Shown piece after piece: positions 13,737 through 14,920 of a stretch of DNA of 33,587 nt (position 1 is the first letter of the stretch; each line of letters starts with the position of its first letter). The DNA lies in the NCBI GenBank assembly GCA_015491235.1, contig WFWG01000037.1, forward strand, positions 1 through 33,587. Reading direction: 5' to 3'. The DNA is from Ardenticatenaceae bacterium (GTDB taxonomy: Bacteria > Chloroflexota > Anaerolineae > Ardenticatenales > Ardenticatenaceae). Position numbers and translations under genes: made by a program. The notes below the pieces were generated by a model that saw only the letters and a program-made list of their open reading frames with translations, did no database searches and was not told the DNA's origin.

Positions 13737-13765
13737 TTGCCTCTCTTCTCGGAAGCGTGTATAAT
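13737..13765 (+). promoter_or_regulatory. Promoter for the putative structured RNA
   Basis: TTGCCT (13737-13742), a 17-bp spacer and a perfect TATAAT (13760-13765) predict a start near 13772. A second TATAAT (13769-13774) follows directly and could give an alternative start near 13781. Confidence 0.65.
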
Positions 13766-13771
13766 CAATAT

Positions 13772-14216
13772 AATCCGCGATAATGAACGGAGCCGACAAA
13801 TACAGCCGAACTGGTGGGAAGTCCCTGGAACGACGTGCGAACCGTGTGATCGTGCGCTTGCTTGGTCCGAAAATTGCCCGCTGCTGGGGAATCCTGGCGG
13901 TGTGCGGTGATCTAAGGGTGGTGTTGATAGCCGAAAGCCGGATAGCGGCGGAGTGAGCCCGCAAGTGCAACCGGAAAAGGAACGCGGAGTGAGTCCGGTT
14001 TGCTCAGCGGACCAAAGGGTTGAGAGCAGCCTTTTCATGTGGACTCTATGCTCACAGTCGGGTAACTGTGCGTCTCCTCCGGCAATTGGAGACCGGGGGG
14101 GCTGTACGTGCCCGGCATCCTGCCGGATATTCTGAAGCTTGTCCTTCCTGCCACAAGAGGCAACGTGCCCGTTCGGCGTATTTGTCGGCCGTGACCTGAG
14201 TGGTCACGGCCTTTTT
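13772..14216 (+). ncRNA. Unidentified ~445-nt structured RNA candidate
   Basis: This stretch has no credible protein gene but shows all the marks of an RNA gene: a strong promoter, an intrinsic terminator and long-range pairing. CCGACAAATACAGCCGAAC (13793-13811) pairs with GTTCGGCGTATTTGTCGG (14171-14188) over 18 bp with one bulged A, and G13792-C14189 adds a nineteenth pair. Several local hairpins lie inside: CACAGT/ACTGTG (~14053-14070), GTCTCC/GGAGAC (~14072-14093), CTTGT/ACAAG (~14139-14158), and an AACCGGA/TCCGGTT helix (~13969-14000). The phrase GCGGAGTGAG occurs twice (13948 and 13984 area). The conserved sequences of RNase P RNA, tmRNA, SRP RNA and cobalamin riboswitches are absent. 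It ends about 30 nt before recX, so it could also be a recX leader with an attenuator. Confidence 0.7.
14187..14216 (+). terminator. Intrinsic terminator of the structured RNA
   Basis: A perfect 10-bp stem GGCCGTGACC/GGTCACGGCC has loop TGAGT and is followed by TTTTT. Its first 3 nt (14187-14189) also belong to the closing helix of the RNA, so the two helices stack or compete. It lies just before the recX ribosome site. Confidence 0.85.
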
Positions 14217-14248: not shown

Positions 14249-14920
14249 GTGAAGTGGGTGACGATTACCAGATTGGAAGTGGACCAGCGCAACCCCAACC
14301 GCGTGCGGGTGGAGTTTGACGGGGCGAAGGCCCTCAAGGTGCCCCTTTCCGTAGCCGCCGCGTTGCACGTCGGGCAGCGCCTTTCGGCCGACGAGTTGGC
14401 CCGCTTGCGGGAAGCAAGCACGGCGCAGCGGGCGCTCGACCTGGCCCTGCGCTACCTGGCGTATCGAAGCCGCTCGACCGCCGAGGTGGTGCGCTACTTG
14501 CGAGAAAAGGGCTTTCCTGAGCACACAGTCGAGCACGTGACGGCGTGGCTCACCGAGCGGGGCTGGCTGGACGATTTGGCATTTGCCCGCTGGTGGGTGG
14601 AGAACCGCACGGAACACCGCCCCCGCGGGCGCCTGATGCTGGCCGCCGAGCTGCGCCAGAAGGGCGTCCCCGACGCCTGCATTGAGGAGGCGCTGGCCGC
14701 GCTGCCAGACGACGAGGAGGAACTGGCGCGCCGGGCGGCGGAGCGCTTCGTGAGGCGCCTCGCCTCGGTGCGGGATCGAACAGTGTTCGTCCGACGGCTT
14801 TCGGCCCACCTGGCACGGCGTGGATTCAGTTGGGAAGTGGTTCGGAGCGTCGTTGAGGCTATGTGGGCTGAACACCAGGTGAACAATGGAGAGGCCAGAC
14901 GACATCGAGACATCCGTTGA
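14249..14920 (+). CDS. recX: Regulatory protein RecX
   Basis: This 223-residue cytoplasmic protein modulates RecA filaments. The family pattern of three-helix repeats is visible. [28 protein letters not shown] is split by the family as the first repeat (core RSRSTAEV). [24 protein letters not shown] follows with its diagnostic L-DD-FA core. [15 protein letters not shown] is next, and the last repeat is in [20 protein letters not shown]. The N-terminal ~45 residues form a small strand-rich region ([20 protein letters not shown]). The start is a GTG at 14249 with AGAGGTG upstream. The gene lies right after the RNA terminator and 17 nt before the rny start, so it may depend on read-through or on an unseen promoter. 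recA is not in the window. Confidence 0.9.

Follow-up and report, generated by a model that had tools for sequence, protein, structure and literature searches.

RecX restrains the DNA-repair protein RecA, and to our knowledge the control of its level has been described in few bacteria. In transcription attenuators, which include trp-type systems, the T-box and ON riboswitches such as the pbuE adenine riboswitch, the antiterminator and the terminator are mutually exclusive. The attenuators predicted by Naville and Gautheret (2010; PMC2965389) are fast-evolving; recX and the Chloroflexi are absent from that paper. In E. coli, a terminator lies after recA, and 5-10% read-through past it yields recX (Pages et al. 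2003, as cited in PMC6662834). Searches of open-access full texts returned no leader RNA, riboswitch or attenuator for recX.

The E. coli read-through arrangement is the closest known to the recX leader described here. In both cases an intrinsic terminator is present, and the low recX expression by read-through described for E. coli would also apply here. Unlike in E. coli, the terminator is preceded by a structured leader of 200-700 nt, whose closing helix (P1) either pairs with the terminator or lies directly against it, and the recX of the window, which is not linked to recA, is preceded by a promoter of its own. The pairing of an upstream arm with the 5' arm of the terminator, seen in many relatives, is shared with the trp-type, T-box and ON-riboswitch attenuators. 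On the other hand, the present leaders showed no signature of a leader peptide, a T-box or a known aptamer, the loop of 200-570 nt differs by genus, and the overlap in the window is only 3 nt. A rapidly changing putative sensing part before a premature terminator is also a property of the attenuators of Naville and Gautheret (PMC2965389).

The probable recX leader of the window

The window is the whole stretch of DNA analysed, 33,587 nucleotides of an Ardenticatenaceae bacterium (Chloroflexota), and makes up an entire contig. The recX gene (14249-14920, plus strand; 14249-14917 identified as RecX by Pfam RecX_HTH1/2/3) begins about 33 nt past an intrinsic terminator, and all the parts that precede it are on the same strand. 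A sigma-70-type promoter (13737-13765) is formed by the -35 element TTGCCT at 13737-13742, a 17-nt spacer and the -10 element TATAAT at 13760-13765 (-10 word TGTATAAT). The position of this promoter places the transcription start at about 13772, and the resulting leader RNA would extend to the terminator (13772-14216, ~445 nt). The leader is closed by P1, in which GCCGACAAATAC-a-GCCGAAC (13792-13811; 5' arm) pairs with GTTCGGC-GTATTTGTCGGC (14171-14189; 3' arm) in 19 bp with a single bulged A. The terminator, GGCCGTGACC-TGAGT-GGTCACGGCC-TTTTT, occupies 14187-14216 and has its outer GGC (14187-14189, 3 nt) in common with P1. A sequence-only reading of the stretch had proposed the promoter, the helix, the terminator and the sharing of 3 nt, and all of them were recovered exactly at these positions.

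The score of P1 is 47, whereas the maximum among 1000 shuffles is 34.5, and none of them reaches the observed value; the helix is beyond chance. The 447-nt RNA folds with a minimum free energy of -196.2 kcal/mol (z -4.08), and 0 of 100 shuffles are equally low. Several hairpins are predicted in the interior (13836-14165), as had been anticipated, but their sequence is not kept even between two congeners. The ORFs of the leader have no Pfam match above the cut-off, which agrees with the earlier view that the element contains no plausible protein; with regard to trp-type leaders, the interior that bears these ORFs is unalignable with the congeners.

No family of Rfam 15 was matched by the element at the gathering score of the covariance models, and at E<=10 nothing meaningful was retrieved (Bacillaceae-1, 15.7 bits, E 3.1). 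The recX leaders of the relatives are likewise devoid of Rfam family matches. RNase P RNA, tmRNA, 6S RNA and SRP RNA, which resemble the element in size range or closing helix, were rejected as identities: none is matched at the locus and each is encoded elsewhere in the same genome (RNase P RNA, RF00010, at G000:C154:374-845; tmRNA at G000:C337:4256-4603; 6S RNA at G000:C379:111-295; SRP RNA at G000:C72:107-205). The exclusion of RNase P RNA, tmRNA and SRP RNA, previously based on missing hallmark sequences, is confirmed by these covariance-model matches, and the Infernal/Rfam search left the element without a known family. The RNase P RNA of this genome is divergent, since its ~470 nt match RF00010 at only 64 bits (gathering score 100). 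Besides its 6S RNA, the genome has a further 6S-like match at G000:C356:32947-33128, which stays below the threshold (37 bits).

Conservation in the congeners

Two congeneric genomes, one Ardenticatenaceae MAG and one Ardenticatenia MAG (G001 and G002), were compared. The order promoter, P1, terminator and recX is repeated in both, with the promoter TTGTCA-17-TATAAT at the same position as in the window. The P1 arms and the terminator are conserved; GCCGACAARTAC of the 5' arm is kept in both congeners and CGGCGTATTTGTCGGCCGTG of the 3' arm is the same in all three genomes. Between G001 and G002, the identity is 0.83 in the first 90 nt, 0.81 at the 3' end, 0.83 in the upstream flank and 0.77 in recX, whereas the interior has 0.62 compared with 0.63 for shuffled sequence. 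The identity of the window interior to the congeners is 0.59-0.63, against 0.62 for shuffled sequence. The sequence between the leader ends is unalignable, even from congener to congener. The element is conserved outside its own genome by its ends, kept in two other genomes, and by its architecture in the class. A DNA search with the whole leader matched the congeners at the 3' end only, besides short chance-like matches, and no further copy of the element was found in its own genome. A short-pattern search with the P1 3' arm (2 mismatches) was uninformative, as it matched 149 of 150 genomes.

The gene upstream of the element in the window differs from that in the congeners, while recX is constant downstream. 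In all three genomes recA is located away from recX, and the element was not seen in the ~300 nt downstream of recA; the element therefore tracks recX and not recA. The loci downstream of recA in the three congeneric genomes (L159, L160 and L161) have in common a promoter-like block that is almost identical, TTTGCGGACTCCCCCCRTTTGTGATACAATCCACAATYGC. It is placed between recA and a nuoA-like gene and is followed by another fast-changing leader ahead of the nuoA-like gene. Directly upstream of the leader promoter, both congeners have an imperfect repeat, GCGACAAATGTAAC...CGACGAATGTCGC (L007 ~695-735 and L008 ~1105-1145), which is a possible repressor operator and is absent from the window.

The recX leaders across Anaerolineae

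The recX loci were drawn from 30 relatives and 80 GTDB contigs. In many Anaerolineae recX is placed 3' of recA, with a noncoding gap of 265-755 nt between them, and in many relatives of the class a noncoding stretch of 200-700 nt with a terminator at its end is found ahead of recX. A terminator precedes recX in most relatives. The recX leaders fold with a mean z of -2.32, in comparison with -0.92 for recX coding sequences (27 loci each). In Roseiflexus and some others the recA-recX gap is 6-100 nt. It is 85-87 nt in two family members of Ardenticatena type, L042 and L044, the latter with the terminator alone, which indicates that the leader is not essential. Promoter-like sites were not enriched on the sense strand over all loci (27 vs 22 loci); nevertheless, TGTATAAT is conserved within alignable groups. 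Upstream of recX in L091, a palindromic insert, GTAGGACAAGCTYAAGCTTGTCCTAC, occurs twice, once before and once within the leader, so the leader interior tolerates insertions.

The long-range pairing was evaluated at the loci with a detected terminator. The 5' half of the terminator plus 22 nt was compared with the region 130-620 nt upstream, and the best ungapped helix was scored against 200 dinucleotide shuffles. In the first set (62 loci), the mean z was 1.39, with p<=0.05 at 16 and p<=0.01 at 10 loci; most single relatives are individually non-significant for P1. In an independent set of one other family, fetched later, the mean z over 36 loci was 2.14 +- 0.41, with 10 loci at p<=0.01, and the reversed-zone control gave a z of -0.01. 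The counts of both sets include related loci, from one genus or, for a few loci of the validation set, perhaps from genomes that also supplied GTDB contigs, and are thus not all independent events. The terminator was undetected at 23 of the 60 validation loci. In the GTDB contigs, the recX terminators have a z of 1.36 +- 0.25, whereas 121 other terminators of the same contigs have 0.16 +- 0.12. The long-range complement thus belongs to recX leaders and not to terminators in general.

Across genera, an upstream arm is complementary either to the terminator 5' arm or to the sequence just before it, and the loop between the P1 arms, 200-570 nt, varies by genus. The arms differ by clade while the pairing is kept (GCCACAGCTATC/GATAGCTGTGGC, TGGCCATAGTTATCTTT/AAAGATAGCTGTGGCCA, AACCATGGTTGCG/CGCAACCGTGGTT and GGAGATCATGGCTTTGAAGAC/GTCATCGAAGCCGTGGTCTCC), a form of the covariation that the sequence-only reading had called for. 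Among the three congeneric genomes, P1 shows a single pair-preserving one-sided change and zero double changes. The absence of covarying pairs, which would have spoken against the closing helix, is thus true of double changes in the genus, whereas between genera the arms differ with their pairing preserved. The alignment of the group L064/L108/L133/L154 is too poor for covariation. A third hairpin before P1, a candidate anti-antiterminator, looked convincing on inspection of several loci and of Brevefilum; it was rejected, as it does not hold up over the clades (Fisher p 0.28).

The Brevefilum leader is alignable (15 sequences, mean identity 67%) and starts at TGTATAAT. Its P1 is 97.8% paired (n=15), compared with at most 54% when the partner is slid by 1-3 columns. 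Double changes occur at 2 pairs, and the covariation score is reached by 0 of 500 shuffles. The P1 3' arm is at the same time the terminator 5' arm, so the two helices are mutually exclusive, and the preference of RNAalifold for the terminator over P1 in this alignment is the expected outcome. The leaders of genus g193 have the promoter word TGTATAAT again and a P1 of up to 21 bp. The Brevefilum leader contains a conserved core, whose covariance model convincingly matches Brevefilum only, with nothing convincing in the window or in other families. A sequence core common to Brevefilum and the window was accordingly rejected, and common descent of all the leaders is not demonstrated by sequence. 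Weak matches to this core upstream of recX in other families (L085 2602-2661, E 0.3; L110 2587-2637, E 3.8) are possibly remote kin or chance.

Predicted competition between P1 and the terminator

Pair probabilities computed for the full RNA place P1 and the terminator at ~0.16/0.84 in L249 and L092, 0.37/0.62 in L088 and ~1/0 in L051. In the Brevefilum member L180 (0/1) the terminator wins outright in the equilibrium fold. These models predict that the two helices compete at near-equal energy in several relatives. For the window and the two congeners, the larger part of P1 is predicted to coexist with the terminator, and the competition affects the outer 3-4 GC pairs only. For the 3 outer pairs of the window, the probabilities are 0.09-0.24 for P1 and 0.76-0.91 for the terminator. 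With an overlap of 3 nt and helices that coexist, a switch in the window would be weak.

Discussion

The stretch before recX is a real, structured RNA leader of a type seen across Anaerolineae. On balance, it is probable that the element serves recX as its 5' leader, with its own promoter where recX is unlinked from recA, and that it acts as a transcription attenuator. RNA polymerase would start at about 13772 and produce the ~445-nt leader closed by P1. The intrinsic terminator 33 nt ahead of recX would then allow recX expression through read-through alone. Where P1 is clear, its 3' arm doubles in most relatives as the 5' arm of the terminator, and P1 would be the antiterminator: its formation would turn recX on and formation of the terminator would turn it off. 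In the window genus, the 3-4 GC pairs of the overlap form the base of the terminator stem, beside the U-tract. If P1 holds these pairs, the base is parted from the U-tract and the terminator should fail; otherwise, both helices would stack and transcription would stop. As in attenuators, an intrinsic terminator is located in the leader with no downstream promoter in the ~33 nt before recX. The overlap of the alternative helix with the terminator is complete in relatives and only 3 bp long in the window. The idea that a switch between closing helix and terminator controls recX is supported by the relatives with complete overlap, but the coupling would be weak in the window, where 3 GC pairs compete. 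Since the outer helix touches or overlaps the terminator, the amount of recX is probably set by the leader.

The element had originally been taken as a structured RNA gene of ~445 nt. Its structure, promoter, terminator and lack of a known family stand, whereas the free-standing status does not agree with ends that travel with recX. A noncoding RNA gene lying before recX by accident, with P1 closing the mature RNA and the terminator ending it, would explain the own promoter and terminator, the strong folding of the window RNA and the fact that P1 and terminator can form together in the window. It is nevertheless unlikely: the interior is unalignable between congeners whose flanks are 77-83% identical, the element stays with recX despite changes of the upstream gene, P1 excludes the terminator in relatives, and the 33 nt downstream are too short for a promoter of recX itself. 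A mobile or repeat element, with terminal inverted repeats that mimic P1, is scarcely credible. A long inverted repeat does flank variable DNA, and palindromic insertions are known in the relative L091; however, the position before recX is constant in many genera with promoter and terminator adjoining, P1 shows pair-preserving changes, the DNA search of its own genome gave no further copy, and no target duplications were seen for the element.

Alternatively, a passive terminator behind a largely unconstrained leader could hold recX at a low level through a fixed share of read-through, as between recA and recX in E. coli (5-10%), in which case P1 would merely tune the level or protect the RNA. 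The terminator ahead of recX in most relatives, the short-gap relative with a terminator alone and the hypervariable interior are all compatible with this explanation. Yet a purely passive leader needs no P1 complementarity, which here is recX-specific and kept by differing sequences, and the explanation is regarded as unlikely. It is very improbable that the element is a riboswitch whose ligand-binding core is conserved. The layout of P1 and terminator is similar to that of ON-type transcriptional riboswitches and Brevefilum has a conserved core, but this core is not found in other families, the window genus has no conserved interior and no Rfam match was obtained. A single metabolite aptamer for the whole class is also unlikely because the interior differs between genera; a fixed read-through set-point, or an attenuator dependent on folding or elongation rate or on a protein, is more likely. 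In the window itself, a simple read-through set-point may operate.

Conclusions

Tentatively, the Anaerolineae may share a class-wide recX RNA switch, in which a long-range antiterminator helix is under selection while each genus evolves its sensing part anew. If this is true, these bacteria control RecX, the antagonist of RecA, by termination. The recX leaders would be a case of a conserved switch helix with an unconserved sensor sequence, a combination that escapes Rfam and other homology tools. If attenuator-like and conserved, such a leader would mean that recombination is under termination control in a large, mostly uncultured class.
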